A DNA stretch of 25,145 nt from a virus. The translations under genes were made by a program, and so were the position numbers. The notes under the pieces are model-generated. The model was not told the DNA's origin. It ran no database searches and worked only from the letters and a program-made list of their open reading frames with translations. Location of the stretch: positions 1-25,145 of the IMG/VR virus record IMGVR_UViG_3300021135_000037. One strand, 5' to 3'. Position 1 is the first letter of the stretch. Each line of letters starts with the position of its first letter. Positions 5,335 through 22,324 of the stretch are shown here, piece by piece.

Positions 5335-5388
5335 GGGTTCCCCTGGTTCGCTCAGTGGGTTGGAAGGGTTGTTTGCTTGCCTGGACTA

Positions 5389-5417
5389 ATTCTGTATCAG
5401 CGATACAGAAAAGTCAA
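5389..5417 (-). promoter_or_regulatory. Leftward early promoter (PL-like)
   Basis: Reading leftward: -35 TTGACT (5412-5417), a 17-bp spacer and -10 CAGAAT (5389-5394), with a predicted start near 5382. The spacer holds the operator at 5390-5410. The rightward promoter at 6693-6720 has the same -35, the same operator position and the same -10, which supports both. Drives genes from 5334 leftward. Confidence 0.75.
5390..5410. promoter_or_regulatory. Operator OL (perfect 21-bp inverted repeat)
   Basis: Left arm TTCTGTATC (5390-5398), centre AGC, right arm GATACAGAA (5402-5410). The arms are a perfect 9-bp inverted repeat. The site covers the promoter spacer and touches the -10, so bound repressor would exclude RNA polymerase. 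The matching site at 6699-6719 differs by one arm position and the centre. Confidence 0.85.
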
Positions 5418-6692: not shown

Positions 6693-6720
6693 TTGACTTT
6701 CTGTAACGATGATACAGAAT
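6693..6720 (+). promoter_or_regulatory. Rightward early promoter (PR-like)
   Basis: -35 TTGACT (6693-6698), a 16-bp spacer, -10 CAGAAT (6715-6720). The predicted start is around 6727-6728, which is the ATG of the Cro-like gene. Same architecture as the leftward promoter; the operator occupies the spacer. Confidence 0.75.
6699..6719. promoter_or_regulatory. Operator OR
   Basis: Left arm TTCTGTAAC (6699-6707), centre GAT, right arm GATACAGAA (6711-6719). Eight of nine arm positions pair. Matches OL at 5390-5410 in length, spacing and right arm. It overlaps the -10 of the rightward promoter. Confidence 0.85.
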
Positions 6721-6727
6721 TTGAAGC

Positions 6728-15465: not shown

Positions 15466-15980
15466 TGGCTGGCAGACCTTCAAAACTCACAGAACGGCAA
15501 TGGAGCGAGATAGGCCGGAGGCTTGCCCTGTCTGAAAGCGTTTCCTCGCTGTCTAGAGAGTTCAAGGTCGCTCGATCTGCCATTACCGCCAGGTATTCAG
15601 ACAGGCTAGAAAATATCAAAAGCGTTGCAAATAGGATTGTTGAAACAGACTGCGCCATTGAGGCCCTTCCAATTTCTGACAGGGTGTCTGCAATTACCCT
15701 GGCAGATCGGGTCAAGTCCATGAATAACTCCGCAGCCAATGCGGGGCAATCGGGACTCAATGGTGCCTCACGGCTCATGAGCATGTTTGAGCGTAAGTCC
15801 ATGGAACTTCCCGAGGATCACGACACCGAAGACCTCAGACCACTGGCAGCACTTGCCGAGGTCGCACAGAAGGGCGCATCAATCGGGCTGGCCTTGATGA
15901 ATGCCAATAAGGATGCCAACAAGGGCGGAGATGGCCGGGACTTGGAACCCTTCATCATCAGGAGGCCCAAGGTTGGCTGA
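15465..15980 (+). CDS. terS: Terminase small subunit (HTH)
   Basis: A 171-residue protein from ATG 15465, overlapping the TAA of the MazG-like gene (TAATG). N-terminal helix-turn-helix: GRPSKLTERQWSEIGRRLALSESVSSLSREFKVARSAITARYSDRLENI. The middle and end are helical with a polar tail (LMNANKDANKGGDGRD). It directly precedes the large subunit, the normal small-subunit position, and would bind the packaging site and load the motor. Identity rests on HTH plus position, not on a strong family match. Confidence 0.75.
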   Translation: MAGRPSKLTERQWSEIGRRLALSESVSSLSREFKVARSAITARYSDRLENIKSVANRIVETDCAIEALPISDRVSAITLADRVKSMNNSAANAGQSGLNGASRLMSMFERKSMELPEDHDTEDLRPLAALAEVAQKGASIGLALMNANKDANKGGDGRDLEPFIIRRPKVG

Positions 15981-17193
15981 GATAACGCCAAGCCTTCCCC
16001 AGCTTGAGGTGCTGGAACATCCTGCCCGATTCCGGGTGGTCTGCGCTGGCCGTAGGTTCGGGAAAACCTTCCTGGCCATCCTGTTCCTCCTGAACCACGC
16101 CACGGCCAAGGATCAGACTTGCTGGTATATCGCGCCCACCTATCGACAGGCAAAGCAGATTGCCTGGAAGATGCTGAAGCGCATTGTGCCCATGTCATGG
16201 GCTGTGTCATGGAATGAGACTGACCTAACCGTCCGGCTGGTAAATGGCTCGGAAATAAGCCTGCGTGGGGCCGATAACCCCGATTCCCTGCGCGGGGCCA
16301 GCCTTTCCGCTGCTGTGCTGGATGAATACGCGGATATGGATGCCGATGCCTGGACTGAGGTTCTACGGCCTGCCCTTGCTGATCAGCAGGGGGAAGCCCT
16401 GTTTATTGGGACTCCAAAAGGCTTCAACCACTTCCACACGCTCTGGACCGCTGCCCATGACCGTGAGGACTGGCAGGCTTGGCAGTTCACTACGGCAGAC
16501 GGTGGCAATGTCCCCCTGGCTGAGATTGAAGCGGCACGGGCTGAACTAGATGACCGAACCTTCCGGCAAGAGTTTCAGGCCAGTTTTGAGACGCTGGTGG
16601 GCAGGGTATATCAGAACTTTGAACGCTCCGTCCACGTTAAGGAAGTCGCTGATAACCCAGGCATGGTTCTCATGGTCGGGTTGGACTTCAACGTAAACCC
16701 CATGTCGGCTGTGCTGGCAACTGCCCCAGGTGGTCAGCTTCATATCTTTGGGGAAGTTGAGATTCCCAACGGAAACACTGAATTGATGGCGGCTGAGATA
16801 CGGCGCAGGTATCCGACTAGGCCAGTCCAGGTCTATCCAGATCCATCGGGCAACGCTCGGAAGACCTCCGCACCTGTGGGGCAGACGGACTTCAGCCTGC
16901 TCAAGTCAGCAGGGTTCAAGGTCATTGCACCCCATGCCGCGCCTCTTGTGGTGGATCGAATCAATGAAACGAATGCCCTATTCAGGAACGCAGCCGGGGA
17001 TCTTCGATGCTTTGTCAGTCCCAAGGCAAAGACACTCATTCGATGCCTGGAAGGTCTGACCTGGAAGGAAGGAACATCGGCCCCGGATAAGTCCTTGGGC
17101 CTCGATCACATGCCCGATGCACTTGGATACCTGATCCATTCGGAATTCCCCATCATCTCCCGCAAGGCAACTGCATCGGAGCTTCGCCTATGA
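15973..17193 (+). CDS. terL: Terminase large subunit
   Basis: A 406-residue protein. Start TTG 15973 is chosen for a perfect AGGAGG seven bases upstream, with eight bases of overlap with the small-subunit stop; the upstream ATGs lack this. Walker A GRRFGKT 26-32, Walker B VLDEYAD 115-121, coupling motif IGTPKG near 150. The nuclease domain has VGLDFNVNPMSAV, YPDPSGNARKTS and LDHMPDALGYLIHSEF, carrying the Asp residues of the RNase H-like fold. It drives DNA into the head and cuts it. Length is a little short compared with the usual 420-500 residues. Confidence 0.95.
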   Translation: MAEITPSLPQLEVLEHPARFRVVCAGRRFGKTFLAILFLLNHATAKDQTCWYIAPTYRQAKQIAWKMLKRIVPMSWAVSWNETDLTVRLVNGSEISLRGADNPDSLRGASLSAAVLDEYADMDADAWTEVLRPALADQQGEALFIGTPKGFNHFHTLWTAAHDREDWQAWQFTTADGGNVPLAEIEAARAELDDRTFRQEFQASFETLVGRVYQNFERSVHVKEVADNPGMVLMVGLDFNVNPMSAVLATAPGGQLHIFGEVEIPNGNTELMAAEIRRRYPTRPVQVYPDPSGNARKTSAPVGQTDFSLLKSAGFKVIAPHAAPLVVDRINETNALFRNAAGDLRCFVSPKAKTLIRCLEGLTWKEGTSAPDKSLGLDHMPDALGYLIHSEFPIISRKATASELRL

Positions 17194-17501
17194 TCACGGA
17201 ACGCGATGCCATCGACATAATGGTGATTCACCAGATCAATGCCCTAGTTCGCTGTGGCAGACCTGTTGAATCTGCACGGCATGAGGCTGAGGACATCGTT
17301 TCTATGATCCTTGAGGACATGGCACGGATTGGGCTAAGGGATGTCTATATCGGCGTGGCGTTGAGGCGGGCCAGGGTTTACAAACTGCGTGACCAGGGCG
17401 TCACTTCGATTGTGGTATCCGAGCGAATGGGCATCTGTTTGGCCCAGGCCAAGAATGATTACAAGTCAGAGATGATCAGGCGCAGGCGTAACGTGGCGTA
17501 A
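17190..17501 (+). CDS. Small HTH-like unknown protein
   Basis: A 103-residue protein, ATG 17190 overlapping the terminase stop (ATGA). Residues about 68-98 (GVTSIVVSERMGICLAQAKNDYKSEMIRRRRN) look like a helix-turn-helix with a basic tail, and the N-terminal part is helical (EAEDIVSMILEDMARIGLRDVYIGVALRRARVYKLR). This outline recalls Mor-type regulators, but the match is weak. It ends with TAA at 17499-17501, where the first structured element starts. A late regulator is possible; not proved. Confidence 0.5.
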   Translation: MITERDAIDIMVIHQINALVRCGRPVESARHEAEDIVSMILEDMARIGLRDVYIGVALRRARVYKLRDQGVTSIVVSERMGICLAQAKNDYKSEMIRRRRNVA

Positions 17502-17565
17502 AGGCTACTCCTGATAGCCTGACCTGGACCAACCCTGAGAGTCGCAGGGGGACACGTAAAACGCA
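17499..17565 (+). ncRNA. Structured element copy A (before lysis genes)
   Basis: The sequence GGCTACTCCTGATAGCC (17503-17519) begins two bases after the TAA stop and forms a hairpin with GGCTA and TAGCC arms. A second possible hairpin has GAC (17527-17529) and GTC (17541-17543) around ACCCTGAG, followed by GTAAAACGC. The copy at 21559-21622 has the same first 21 bases and the same later blocks (AACYCTGAG and GTRAAACGC) in the same order, while other bases differ; the arms of the second hairpin change together (GAC/GTC against GCCC/GGGC). This suggests a conserved RNA structure. No known class is recognised. Confidence 0.6.
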
Positions 17566-17622
17566 GCCAAGGGCTTCTGCCCATTTCACCAAGAGCCCCC
17601 TGCCCTTGGTGCCCTGTGTCCC
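17549..17622 (+). promoter_or_regulatory. Long-range RNA stem covering the GTG start of the endolysin-like gene
   Basis: GGGACAC (17549-17555) pairs perfectly with GTGTCCC (17616-17622), which includes the GTG start codon. Inside it CCAAGGGC (17567-17574) pairs with GCCCTTGG (17602-17609). Competing local hairpins exist: GGGC/GCCC around TTCT (17571-17582) and CACCAAG (17587-17593) with CTTGGTG (17605-17611). No Shine-Dalgarno is present upstream of the GTG. The two forms are mutually exclusive, so a translational switch is possible. Pairings are by eye. Confidence 0.45.
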
Positions 17623-17990
17623 TTACTCTCACCTTCCAACAGTCAACCGGCCTCATCACAGATGAAGCCGGGGAAGTCGTGGCCCATGCTTGGGCTGGTC
17701 ATGGTGACGGGCTGAACAATCCAGCCATGCAGGAGATTCATGAGGTTGGACCGCTGCCACAGGGCGTCTATGAGGTTCGGCCTTGGGAGGACAATCATCC
17801 CCCCCTTGGTCCCATGGTTGCCCATCTAGTGCAGATCGAGGGTGAGACGTTTGGTAGGGATGCGTTCTACATCCACGGGCCTTCGTCCACCCATTACATG
17901 CAGGAATCCAAGGGCTGCATCGTCGTTCCTCATGTCATGCGGCAGAAGGTTCACGATCTGGCCCCTGACTTCATTCGGGTGGTGGCATGA
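17616..17990 (+). CDS. YkuD-like L,D-transpeptidase-fold protein (endolysin position)
   Basis: A 124-residue protein starting at GTG 17616. It resembles the Tlde1/DUF2778 type: LTFQQSTGLITDEAG at the start, WAGHGDGLNNPAMQEIHEVGPLPQGVYEV, RDAFYIHG (H87, G88) and a catalytic SKGC (98-101) in ESKGCIVVP. These are the His and Cys positions of L,D-transpeptidase-like enzymes, which act on peptidoglycan peptides. No signal peptide is seen. It is followed by a holin, so it is likely the cell-wall lysis enzyme; a cutting role instead of crosslinking is inference. There is no Shine-Dalgarno and the start lies in a predicted RNA stem. Confidence 0.75.
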   Translation: MSLTLTFQQSTGLITDEAGEVVAHAWAGHGDGLNNPAMQEIHEVGPLPQGVYEVRPWEDNHPPLGPMVAHLVQIEGETFGRDAFYIHGPSSTHYMQESKGCIVVPHVMRQKVHDLAPDFIRVVA

Positions 17991-19161: not shown

Positions 19162-20555
19162 ATCCCGTAGGCCAACAGACGGACACCCAAAAGCACCTGG
19201 AATCTAAGCGTCAACTACCGGCTGCACTTATGGATGGCACAGACGCCATGCGGGACGCTGGCAAAGCCTATCTCCCTCAGCATCCAGCCGAGTCCTCTGA
19301 GGCGTGGAAGTCTAGGCGCGATGGTTCTGTCTTGCTGCCCGCCTATCGTGATGCCGTGGACCTTGCTTGCGGGTTGATCTTTCGTAAGCCGGTAGAACTG
19401 GGCCAGGACGTTCCCCCTGATGCGGAGGAATGGCTGGAAAACGTGGATCTTTCGGGCCGGGACATTACCCAGTTCGCACAGGACGTTCTACGTGACGCCT
19501 TTATGGGCGTGACCTATATCGTGGCCGATTATCCCAGGGTGCCAGTGGGCGGGACTCTTGCCACTGAGCAGGCCATGGGGGCGAGGCCCTACCTGATCCA
19601 TGTGAAGGCTGAGCAGGTATTGGGCTGGCGTTACCAGATGGTTAATGGGAAACCAATGCTGACCCAGTTCCGCTATATGGAGACTTGCACGGAACCAGAT
19701 GGCCCCTTCCTTGAAAAGACCGTCCAGAAGGTTCGGGTGCTTGAGCCTGGAATGGTTACAGTCTATGAAAAGGAAGCTCTGGATGCTGACTGGGAACTAG
19801 AACCTGAGGAATCGGGCATTGTGAGCCTTCAGGAAGTCCCAGTGATCCCTATCTACACCGGCAGAACTGCCTTCATGGAGGGTGTGCCTCCGCTGCGTGA
19901 TCTGGCTTGGAAGAATGTGGAGCATTGGCAGAGTTCCAGTGACCAGCGGAACATCCTTCATGTGGCCCGTGTGCCGTTGCTTGCCACTATCGGCGTGGAT
20001 GCTGGCGATCTTGTGATTGGACCTCAGAACATTCTAGCGATGCCTGTGGGGGGCGATGCTAAGTGGGTGGAACACACTGGGAAGGCTATCGAGGCAGGCA
20101 GAACTGACCTCCAGGACTTGGAAGCTCAGATGCAGCGTATGGCTGGGAAGATGCTGGATACCGGCACAGTCAAAACCGCGATGGAGGCTGGGGTTGAGTC
20201 TACGCAGGCGATGAGCCGAATCATGGCCTGGGCTGTTGGGCTTCAGTCTGGTCTGAATCAGGCATGGGGTATGGCCGGGAAGTGGATCAACAAGGAACTA
20301 GGCGAGCTTTCAGTTAATACTGATGTGGACGTTTCCAAGCCCGATGCCACTTTCTTAACTGAGATTAGAAACGCTGTGATCGCGGGCCTTCTGACCAAAG
20401 AAACCTATCTGAACATCATGAACCAAGCCGAGGTTTTGCCTGCCGGGTTCGATGTGCAGGATGAACTAGACAGGCTGGATATGCAGGCACCTGACCCAAT
20501 GATGGTCAAGCAATTGACCAAGAAAATACCAGTGAAGCCAGATGAGCCTAGCTGA
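19158..20555 (+). CDS. Portal protein, DUF4055 type
   Basis: A 465-residue protein, ATG 19158 (ATGA overlap). It shows the DUF4055 outline: YLPQHPAESSEAWKSRRDGSVLLPAYRDAVDLACGLIFRKPVEL at 35-75, ITQFAQDVLRDAFMGVTYIVADYPRV near 112-135, PVIPIYTGRT near 230 and the stem-like LAWKNVEHWQSSSDQRNILHVARVPLL near 250-275. The DUF4055 proteins are the portal of this type of phage, forming the dodecamer ring of the head vertex. Its place between terminase/lysis and Mu F-like gene supports this. Confidence 0.88.
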   Translation: MNPVGQQTDTQKHLESKRQLPAALMDGTDAMRDAGKAYLPQHPAESSEAWKSRRDGSVLLPAYRDAVDLACGLIFRKPVELGQDVPPDAEEWLENVDLSGRDITQFAQDVLRDAFMGVTYIVADYPRVPVGGTLATEQAMGARPYLIHVKAEQVLGWRYQMVNGKPMLTQFRYMETCTEPDGPFLEKTVQKVRVLEPGMVTVYEKEALDADWELEPEESGIVSLQEVPVIPIYTGRTAFMEGVPPLRDLAWKNVEHWQSSSDQRNILHVARVPLLATIGVDAGDLVIGPQNILAMPVGGDAKWVEHTGKAIEAGRTDLQDLEAQMQRMAGKMLDTGTVKTAMEAGVESTQAMSRIMAWAVGLQSGLNQAWGMAGKWINKELGELSVNTDVDVSKPDATFLTEIRNAVIAGLLTKETYLNIMNQAEVLPAGFDVQDELDRLDMQAPDPMMVKQLTKKIPVKPDEPS

Positions 20556-21561
20556 TCAGTTCCACTCCAGCATTCTCAAAAATTCGGTCCAGTGGATGCG
20601 CTATGAGGCAGGCATCCGTCAGGATATTGACGCGATGATCCGTCAACTTGGAAAGGATCTGGTTGAGGAATTGTCGGGCTCTGGCATCGACACGCCTAGA
20701 ACGGACTGGCAACGGGCACGGCTACGGAAGCTGCTGGACGAAGCCCAAAGCATCGTGGATGACTCATATACGCAGATTGCAGCTCATGCCTCGGATGGCC
20801 TAGCCGCTGGAATCGAGGCTTCCACAGCTAACCTGCTGGCCTCCATGAATGATGCCGTGGGCGTTGAACTGCTCCAGGGGATCAAGTGGAGTCCCGGACT
20901 GCTGAAAGCCCTAGTCGATGACACCCTAACCGTGGGCGCTCCATCGGCTGAATGGTGGGCAAGGCAGGGCGAGAGTCTGACCCAGGGATTCACAGACCAG
21001 ATGCGCCAAGCCATGCTCCAGGGTGAAAACCTCCAGAGCATGGTGGCCCGCACCAAGGATCTGATGATGGTCGGAACCCGGAACGCTGAGGCCCTGGTCA
21101 GGACTAGCGCCATGGCCGTGAACAATGCGGCCCAGCTTGCTCTCTGGAAAGAGAACGCCAATAGCCTGGATGAACTCCAGTGGGTTGCTACGCTCGATCC
21201 CAAAACCTGTCTGGTGTGTGGTGTGCTGGATGGTCAGACATGGCCGATCAATGACACCCATGAGGTGCCCCCTGCACATTGGAACTGCCGATGCTGCACA
21301 GTCCCGATCCCTAAGATGTGGGATGAACTGGGGATCAAGATGCCCGTGGGTCAGCGCCCAACGTCCACAGATACAGCCAACGGCACAGTATCCGGGGACA
21401 CCACATGGGAATCCTGGCTTGGGAGTCTGAGCAAGTCTGAGCAGGAATCCATTCTTGGCCCTGGACGCTTCCGACTTTGGAACTCGGGCAAGTTAAGCAT
21501 TCGGGATCTGACTGACCAGCGTGGCAATGTGCTGACTCTGGACCAGCTAAAGGCGCTCTAA
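20542..21561 (+). CDS. Head morphogenesis protein (Mu gpF-like)
   Basis: A 339-residue protein from ATG 20542, overlapping the portal end by 14 bases. The Mu gpF-type minor head domain is at about 165-255: RNAEALVRTSAMAVNNAAQLALWKENANSLDELQWVATLDPKTCLVCGVLDGQTWPI and PPAHWNCRCCTVPI, with the CxxC and CRCC that bind metal. The C-terminal part carries TWESWLGSLSKSEQESILGPGRFRLWNSGKLSIRDLT, a motif frequent in proteins of this family. A minor head protein needed in early assembly. Stop TAA at 21559-21561 begins the second structured element. Confidence 0.88.
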   Translation: MSLADQFHSSILKNSVQWMRYEAGIRQDIDAMIRQLGKDLVEELSGSGIDTPRTDWQRARLRKLLDEAQSIVDDSYTQIAAHASDGLAAGIEASTANLLASMNDAVGVELLQGIKWSPGLLKALVDDTLTVGAPSAEWWARQGESLTQGFTDQMRQAMLQGENLQSMVARTKDLMMVGTRNAEALVRTSAMAVNNAAQLALWKENANSLDELQWVATLDPKTCLVCGVLDGQTWPINDTHEVPPAHWNCRCCTVPIPKMWDELGIKMPVGQRPTSTDTANGTVSGDTTWESWLGSLSKSEQESILGPGRFRLWNSGKLSIRDLTDQRGNVLTLDQLKAL

Positions 21562-21637
21562 AGGCTACTCCTGATAGCCCCATACCGCCCAACTCTGAGG
21601 GCAGGCAGGTGAAACGCTTGCCACCGCGAAATGCGGA
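21559..21637 (+). ncRNA. Structured element copy B (5' UTR of scaffold gene)
   Basis: Starts at the TAA of the head morphogenesis gene with the same GGCTACTCCTGATAGCC hairpin (21563-21579) as copy A. Further pairs: GCCC/GGGC (21587-21602, loop AACTCTGA), GGCAGG/CTTGCC (21604-21622, loop TGAAACG) and CCGC/GCGG (21624-21636). It occupies the 91-base gap before the scaffold gene, whose GGAG is at 21642-21645. Likely an RNA leader acting on the scaffold/coat genes. No known class recognised. Confidence 0.6.
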
Positions 21638-21652
21638 CCTTGGAGATTCCCA

Positions 21653-22324
21653 ATGGCGCTGAAACACAAGATCGACTCTCTGGAAGGGCTGGATGATGCC
21701 CTGAAACCGCTATACGCCAAAAGCGAAGATGGCCGTTTCACCCTTCAGGTTGACGATGCTCCCGCAACCAATACCATCGCCAAGCTCAAGTCGGACCTGG
21801 AAAACGTCACGAAGACGTTGAAGGAACGTGAAGCAGCGGAAGCAAAGGCTATTCGAGATGCGGAAACCGCCAGGGATCTAGCGGCTGGCAATTACGAGAA
21901 AGTCAGCGCAGCCGACAAGGCCGCACTGAAAGCCGCTGAAGAAAAGGCAGCACTCCTAGAATCCAAGATCCTGAATGGAACCCGCGAACGGGCGCTCATG
22001 GAAGCCATGAGTGATCCCACCGTCAAGGGTATCCCGAAGGCTCTGCTTCCCCACATCCAGGATCTGGTGGAAGTCGTTCCCGATGGGGACGGATTCAAGG
22101 TGGTTCCGAAGGGCAACCCGGCTCAGAAACTTACCGATTTCGTGTCTAGTTTCAAGAAAGACATGGCGTGGGGTTTCGAGGCTTCGGGAGCTTCGGGGAG
22201 TGGTTCCAGCCAGAGCAACGGCGGCAAGTCCGCAGGCAAGCCCATGTCTCTAAATGATTTCAACAAGCTCACAATCCGCGAGCGTGACGCCTTCATTAAA
22301 GGCGGCGGCTCCTTCACTGACTGA
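21653..22324 (+). CDS. Head scaffold protein
   Basis: A 223-residue protein from ATG 21653 with GGAG seven bases upstream. It has the outline of phage scaffold proteins: short N-terminal segment, a long charged coiled coil at about 45-110 (IAKLKSDLENVTKTLKEREAAEAKAIRDAET), a middle region and a Gly/Ser-rich linker (GASGSGSSQSNGGKSAGK) before a short C-terminal helix (LNDFNKLTIRERDAFIK) that probably contacts the coat. It sits directly before the coat gene, the normal position. Scaffold proteins direct head assembly and leave the head before packaging. Confidence 0.82.
   Translation: MALKHKIDSLEGLDDALKPLYAKSEDGRFTLQVDDAPATNTIAKLKSDLENVTKTLKEREAAEAKAIRDAETARDLAAGNYEKVSAADKAALKAAEEKAALLESKILNGTRERALMEAMSDPTVKGIPKALLPHIQDLVEVVPDGDGFKVVPKGNPAQKLTDFVSSFKKDMAWGFEASGASGSGSSQSNGGKSAGKPMSLNDFNKLTIRERDAFIKGGGSFTD

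Follow-up and report, generated by a model that had tools for sequence, protein, structure and literature searches.

The stretch of DNA analysed here (hereafter the window) is an IMG/VR virus record of 25,145 bases in which the late genes are oriented rightward. The late run starts with the TerL gene (15901–17193, plus strand) and continues with g103 (17190..17501), the first copy of a repeated element (copy A), a gene with a Tlde1/YkuD-like domain that opens the lysis group (17616..17990, plus strand; PF10908, E 3e-10), a GTA-type (3TM) holin gene directly after it (PF11351, E 2e-21), the portal gene, the gene for a MuF-like head protein, the second copy of the element (copy B), the head scaffolding protein gene (21653..22324, plus strand; phrog_206, E 1e-22) and the gene for a P22-type major head protein. 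The ORF that precedes copy B (20542–21561, plus strand) ends at the TAA of that site. The gene at 17616–17990 occupies the position of an endolysin gene, and its Tlde1/YkuD domain is L,D-transpeptidase-like.

The two copies have TAAAGGCTACTCCTGATAGCC in common, which occurs exactly at 17499–17519 and 21559–21579 and whose first bases are in each case the TAA that ends the ORF before it (17190–17501 and 20542–21561). We found this repeat just as the initial annotation had described it, together with the blocks AACYCTGAG and GTRAAACGC, which are present in that order. The 21-base pair belongs to a family of 58-nt direct repeats that are 72% identical, the similarity runs beyond the first 21 bases, and the repeat is real, with chance excluded.

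Relatives were gathered by searches for the portal, MuF, TerL and head proteins. The informative ones are L046 with L080, L081, L082/L084, L085, L086, L097, L117 and the prophages G067 (= L145) and G066 (= L146). L046 and L080 come from one sample and their MuF pieces are consecutive; L117 is a contig of an Acidobacteria MAG, and both prophages lie in genomes of the order to which L117 belongs. Contigs near-identical to the window carry copies identical to its own. Homologues also occur outside this genome: in some six lineages of phage and in two prophages of Acidobacteriota, homologous sites stand before the lysis and scaffold genes. In each informative relative, as far as its contig extends, a type A element stands before the lysis gene and a type B element before the scaffold gene. 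The lysis enzyme encoded after type A varies by genome as judged by sequence (Tlde1/YkuD-like in the window, other families elsewhere), and this ties site A to the lysis function. The placement of both sites, before lysis and before scaffold, matches the targets of Mu-type control, and we infer the control itself from position only. A pattern search of viral contigs for AAAGGCT...AGCC...AACYCTGAG returned 29 stretches, of which those in L046 and near-identical contigs are real and the others chance; among cultured phages there was no near match to the element at the DNA level.

Elsewhere in the window, a 24-nt inverted repeat pair with TTCTGTATCAGCGATACAGAA-like dyads (5388–5411 and 6698–6721) flanks repressor-like genes. 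These dyads are probably lysogeny repressor operators, distinct from the GGCTA dyad of the repeat. The latter is absent near the repressor genes, and a CI-like operator was rejected for it on this ground.

Dyads, hexamers and predicted start sites

The core of the repeat is a 17-bp dyad composed of two 5-bp inverted repeats and a 7-bp spacer, GGCTA-CTCCTGA-TAGCC, identical at site A before the lysis gene (17503..17519, no strand assigned) and site B before the scaffold gene (21563..21579, no strand assigned). We propose both as activator sites. With up to one mismatch allowed, GGCTA-N7-TAGCC occurs in the window at these two places only (shuffles average 0.38 matches). Homologues in the relatives have genome-specific arms (the variants are GGCTA, GGCTC, GTCC(A), GTAAA, GTAAC, GTGAC and GTCCC), which are the same at A and B within a genome and differ between genomes. 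For seven genomes the within-genome agreement of the arms is 70/70 bases, a value reached by the true pairing alone among 5040 permutations. The dyad loops agree partially within genomes, and the 13-base linkers show no within-genome similarity beyond permutation. Main-clade genomes have 5-7-5 dyads at both sites, with exceptions in L081 (4-bp arms) and L097 (8-nt spacer), and records scanned whole contain the dyad once before each of the two gene groups and nowhere else, excepting an extra degenerate site in L081. The stop codon lies tens of bases away from the dyad, or inside it, in several relatives; the adjacency of the repeat to a TAA is, as judged from this comparison, incidental. At the end of the L097 contig (L153:18559-18596), a g103-like ORF is followed by GTCCTG-N6-CAGGAC and, after an 11-nt spacing, by GAGGCT, which may represent a tandem paralogue or an assembly variant.

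Each dyad is followed by a hexamer of the form NANNCT, which we propose as a -10-like element: AACCCT at site A (17531..17536, plus strand; also the AACYCT block) and AACTCT at site B (21591..21596, plus strand), both 11 nt after the dyad. A2, C5 and T6 are kept in 20/20 sites. The spacing, for which the L117 dyad was re-registered, is exactly 11 outside the two prophages; there it is 12/12 and 13/13, equal at A and B within each prophage. An A stands seven bases past the hexamer T in 10 of 11 type B/C sites, and the corresponding A21603 (plus strand) is where transcription of the scaffold leader is predicted to start. In type A, a GC-rich stem begins at approximately the same place, 7–8 nt after the hexamer T, in nearly all elements, which puts the predicted start of the lysis leader at 17543..17544 (plus strand). 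When six records were scanned blind for perfect dyads that recur with the same arms and are followed by NANNCT, 5/6 genomes came up at spacing 11, with one case each at spacings 2 and 12 that we attribute to chance; NANNCT was derived from the same sites, and it is the other spacings that serve as the control here, in place of independent data.

As a -10 element the hexamer is poor, being G+C-rich and sharing A2 and T6 alone with TANNNT, and a sigma-70 promoter scan returned nothing at these sites. The dyad centre falls near -32 relative to the predicted +1. A hairpin resembling an intrinsic terminator precedes site A by about 60 nt in prophage G067 (L145:5560-5620). In Mu, C and lys are likewise separated by such a hairpin, and the arrangement in G067 fits a fresh transcription start. 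L081 contains a third site right after its g103 gene (L081:2125-2180), with a degenerate dyad, the 11-nt spacing, GAGTCT as hexamer and an A at +1; it is separated from the lysis gene by extra genes.

G-U pairs account for 1 of 103 pairs in the dyad versus 21 of 179 in the RNA stems (Fisher p 8e-4, uncorrected for relatedness). Because the arms are shared within genomes, G-U pairs are scarce, the spacing to the hexamer is fixed and a candidate Mor/C-like gene adjoins the first site, it is more probable that the exact repeat is a DNA activator site than mainly an RNA element. The dyad, its spacing and the hexamer fit a promoter or DNA site better than an RNA hairpin, and the existence of paired DNA sites is well supported by the genome comparison. 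The earlier suggestion that one factor could act on both sites fits well with the arms shared within each genome.

The g103 protein as a candidate activator

Directly upstream of site A, g103 (17190..17501, plus strand) encodes a 103-aa helix-turn-helix protein, our candidate for a Mor/C-like activator. Its AlphaFold2 model (pLDDT 91.8) has a C-terminal HTH, and its orthologues have HTH matches in Pfam. Profile-profile alignment of g103 with Mor/C using hhalign gave a probability of 80.5 (E 1.3e-5, 82 columns). In the comparison with Pfam Mor, g103 did not reach the cut-off; since the profile-profile match is its only link to Mor, we have not filed it as a member of that family. Fold searches (Foldseek/VIA) matched Mu C and Mor with E above 1 and a VIA Z of 6.8 for C, and were unspecific, with sigma region 4 and DeoR-like domains ahead of both. 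In the prophages, the ORF between TerL and site A of G066 is identified as Pfam Mor over the cut-off (PF08765, E 1.9e-7), and a weaker Mor match lies about 1 kb upstream of site A in G067. We regard g103 as a candidate remote relative of phage Mu Mor/C and as the likely reader of the dyad; this putative activator has diverged very strongly in the clade of the window. A phage-encoded T7-type RNA polymerase was also considered, and PF00940 was found in no record, a result that is uninformative given that the control genomes were equally blank.

Leader RNAs of the lysis and scaffold genes

The type A and type B leaders have H1 (the dyad as a hairpin), the spacing and the hexamer in common, whereas downstream type A forms a GC-rich stem instead. 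In the lysis leader of the window this stem, P2, pairs GCAGGGGG (17544..17551, plus strand) with CCCCCTGC (17596..17603, plus strand). Inspection, to which no statistic was attached, indicated that the GC-rich strands of P2 vary in sequence by genome and keep their complementarity. Several type A hexamer regions would also be able to pair with the downstream ribosome-binding region. A first MFE for copy A (17499–17566) was no better than that of shuffles (z -0.65).

The scaffold leader (type B) of the window comprises two hairpins with GNRAN pentaloops, P3 (GGCAGGU-GAAAC-GCUUGCC, 21604..21622, plus strand; 98.2% of cells paired, three pairs with double changes) and P4 (CCGC-GAAAU-GCGG, 21624..21636, plus strand; 100% of cells paired, two pairs with double changes). 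Across the relatives the corresponding pentaloops are GUGAU, GCGAA, GUGAC, GAAAC and alike. In the enclosing helix P1, the anti-Shine-Dalgarno strand CTCTGAGG (21593..21600, plus strand), upstream of the predicted +1, pairs with CCTTGGAG (21638..21645, plus strand), which contains the scaffold Shine-Dalgarno sequence. P1, joining CYCUGAGG to the Shine-Dalgarno, is the weakest of the four helices (78.6% paired), with double changes in its inner part. Over eight type B elements, pairing holds in 92.4% of cells, against 76.2 on shuffling and no more than 47.7 on sliding, and double changes occur in 12 of 23 pairs. The covariation score of 0.536 compares with 0.225 on shuffling and no more than 0.16 with slid partners. 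These values are to be read with the alignment fitted to the model, several of the sequences closely related and H1, which is possibly a DNA feature, counted in the totals.

The covariation that the initial annotation had proposed to look for is present, and its idea of RNA structure is supported for the scaffold leader; support is lacking for the repeat itself as mainly an RNA element, its arms being genome-shared and its G-U pairs scarce. The hairpins that it had taken to covary, GAC/GTC in A and GCCC/GGGC in B, can form in the window and are not conserved among relatives, the arms GCCC/GGGC recurring in L046 only; GTAAAACGC in A and GTGAAACGC in B occupy non-equivalent positions, and the supported helices are others. 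A covariance model built from seven type B elements matched copy B of L097, which was outside the model (E 1.6e-7), copy A of L080 (7.5e-4) and copy A of the window (0.011). A weak match (0.068) was obtained in L136 directly before the scaffold gene, where inspection identifies two pentaloop hairpins and a strand able to pair with the Shine-Dalgarno. On this comparative evidence, the P3/P4 leader before the scaffold gene is well supported as a covarying structured RNA.

Two or three GNRAN pentaloop hairpins also lie directly before the scaffold gene in L128 (L128:8650-8750), L129 (L129:8705-8805), L136 (L136:8713-8813) and L125 (L125:8459-8559), which are distant phages or prophages of other phyla; the background of such hairpins is about 0.1 per 100 nt. 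They are possibly a wider scaffold-leader motif. The cultured phages with P22-type coats (P22, HK639, PS-1, Pm86, P106B, DMCA and qsb1) have scaffold leaders with other hairpins, the element being absent from them. In PS-1, Pm86 and HK639 (L165:8640-8765, L168:3550-3686 and L169:3500-3731), an intrinsic terminator is followed by hairpins before the scaffold gene, and those of PS-1 and HK639 have GGAU/GGAA loops.

No known riboswitch or ribozyme class had been recognised in the element, and Rfam agrees: no covariance model matched at gathering score, and up to E 10 there was a single chance microRNA match (E 4.7). That reading needs amending in one respect, as known counterparts do exist in the Mor/C late promoters of Mu and in T4 gene e. 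A hammerhead or other ribozyme was dismissed, no core being seen by eye, as was mimicry of an anticodon stem (5 bp plus a 7-nt loop), the loops varying freely; a tRNA search of the window returned none.

In P1, the 5' strand (21593–21600) is upstream of A21603, the predicted start, which P3 follows directly, so that read-through RNA alone would be able to form the P1 helix. In RNA reading through from the upstream genes, the promoter strand CYCUGAGG would pair with the Shine-Dalgarno and early translation would be damped; RNA from the late promoter would contain P3 and P4, lack the anti-Shine-Dalgarno strand and be translated. Predicted accessibility agrees with such occlusion in L046, L081, L097, L136 and L146 (about half of the elements), gives no clear occlusion in the L082/L085/L086/L117 set, and changes little or in the wrong direction in copy B of the window. 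Occlusion of the Shine-Dalgarno in read-through RNA is, on these folding calculations, a hypothesis of moderate strength. The folded leader RNAs may also keep the lysis and scaffold genes from being used too early.

Probable twin late promoters and their known counterparts

We interpret the two elements as probable twin late promoters with structured leaders, served by a g103-type activator and subject to read-through damping like that of T4 gene e, and we give this reading a probability of about two in three. The Mor/C-like HTH protein g103, encoded just upstream of site A, would bind the 17-bp dyad as a dimer and let RNA polymerase start about 7 nt after the weak -10-like NANNCT, and the lysis group and the scaffold/head group would be switched on together. 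More tentative, and in our estimate somewhat short of even odds, is the fuller proposal that a single strip of DNA serves a Mor/C-type late promoter as its -10 element and, in read-through RNA, becomes the anti-Shine-Dalgarno strand, and that its use at two places in each genome times lysis together with head assembly in uncharacterised siphophages, some of them in Acidobacteriota.

The features of the leader could also be explained at the level of RNA only, with the repeat folded into the hairpin H1 of a long late transcript and H1 plus the three-way junction forming a translational operator bound by a protein, for example free scaffold protein, which would repress its own synthesis as reported for phage P22. 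We judge this unlikely, while noting that the pairing of H1 as RNA fails in hardly any copy and involves many double changes, that P1 covers the Shine-Dalgarno and that the pentaloop hairpins are conserved and resemble the GNRAN hairpins before the scaffold genes of the distant L125, L128, L129 and L136. A stem shared within the genome with a freely varying loop is, however, the reverse of usual RNA hairpin recognition; the dyad avoids G-U pairs, the hexamer spacing is fixed also in type A leaders, whose RNA differs, and the gene adjoining the first site is a Mor-type candidate.

The adjoining gene, Mor-like in the prophages, and the fixed spacing to hexamer and +1, which a road-block would not need, likewise make it improbable that the dyads are repressor or road-block operators ("stoperators") that silence the lysis and structural genes in the prophage rather than activator sites. 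Short intergenic dyads that are genome-specific and number two per genome would be expected of a fast-evolving repressor, but no copy lies near the repressor-like genes of the window, whose own dyad (5388–5411, 6698–6721) differs. Scarcely credible is a functionless recent duplication of a short stretch, to which the identity of the first 21 bases within a 58-nt stretch of just 72% identity might point: relatives down to about 40–56% portal identity carry paired copies at the same two places, with arms changed together, and the comparative data already contradict it.

How late genes are controlled is known for almost none of the phages seen in metagenomes only. For the group studied here, comparison by itself yields a candidate activator open to testing, the sites it would bind, the likely points of transcription start and a pair of leader RNAs, and the pattern suggests that lysis and head genes are under control of the Mu C type far beyond Mu-like phages. 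If true, transcriptional and translational timing would be joined in one element. The combination of a repeated dyad, a fixed distance to a hexamer and an adjoining Mor-like gene offers a recipe for locating late promoters in the genomes of other phages.

In phage P22, the scaffold protein is reported to repress its own synthesis when free. This autoregulation resembles what is proposed for the window in that the scaffold gene is a point of control and the coat protein is of P22 type; unlike the window, P22 has only 13 bases from the portal gene to the scaffold gene and lacks a comparable leader. Our literature search returned nothing usable on P22 scaffold autoregulation or on Mor-type late promoters in other phages.

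In Mu, C activates lys, I, P and mom, and I is needed for head synthesis, possibly for scaffolding (PMC4461284), while the 16-bp element to which Mor binds, made up of two 5-bp inverted repeats and a G/C-rich hexanucleotide spacer, replaces the -35 element (PMC4390567). The C-dependent Plys and PI and the Mor-dependent Pm correspond to the window in several respects: a candidate Mor/C-like gene directly before the lysis gene (in Mu, C before the endolysin gene), a site in which a G/C-rich spacer separates two 5-bp inverted repeats, poor promoter elements, and the lysis and head scaffold gene groups as targets, in the window by position. The Mu element spans 16 bp and the dyad of the window 17 bp, and the Pm site is centred at -43.5 whereas that of the window is at about -32 from a predicted start. 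The window further differs in its NANNCT hexamer, its structured leader RNA and its very divergent activator, and its group consists of siphophage-type genomes with P22-like coat proteins. The parallel with Mu appears close, with a different distance and a weak hexamer.

For the leader, the counterpart is T4 gene e, in which late promoters lie within the region encoding the 5' strand of an inhibitory structure and the long early RNA yields about 100-fold less lysozyme (PMC3014915). As in the predicted layout of the window, the late promoter of gene e, soc and I-TevI lies in the strand that pairs with the Shine-Dalgarno region in the longer early RNA, and good translation is confined to the late RNA (PMC3014915). 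T4 uses its late sigma where the window would use a Mor/C-like activator, and the helix of the window, in contrast to that of gene e, encloses two conserved pentaloop hairpins, with occlusion of the Shine-Dalgarno partly supported by folding. By analogy, the system would work like a Mu C-type late promoter pair with a T4 e-type leader.
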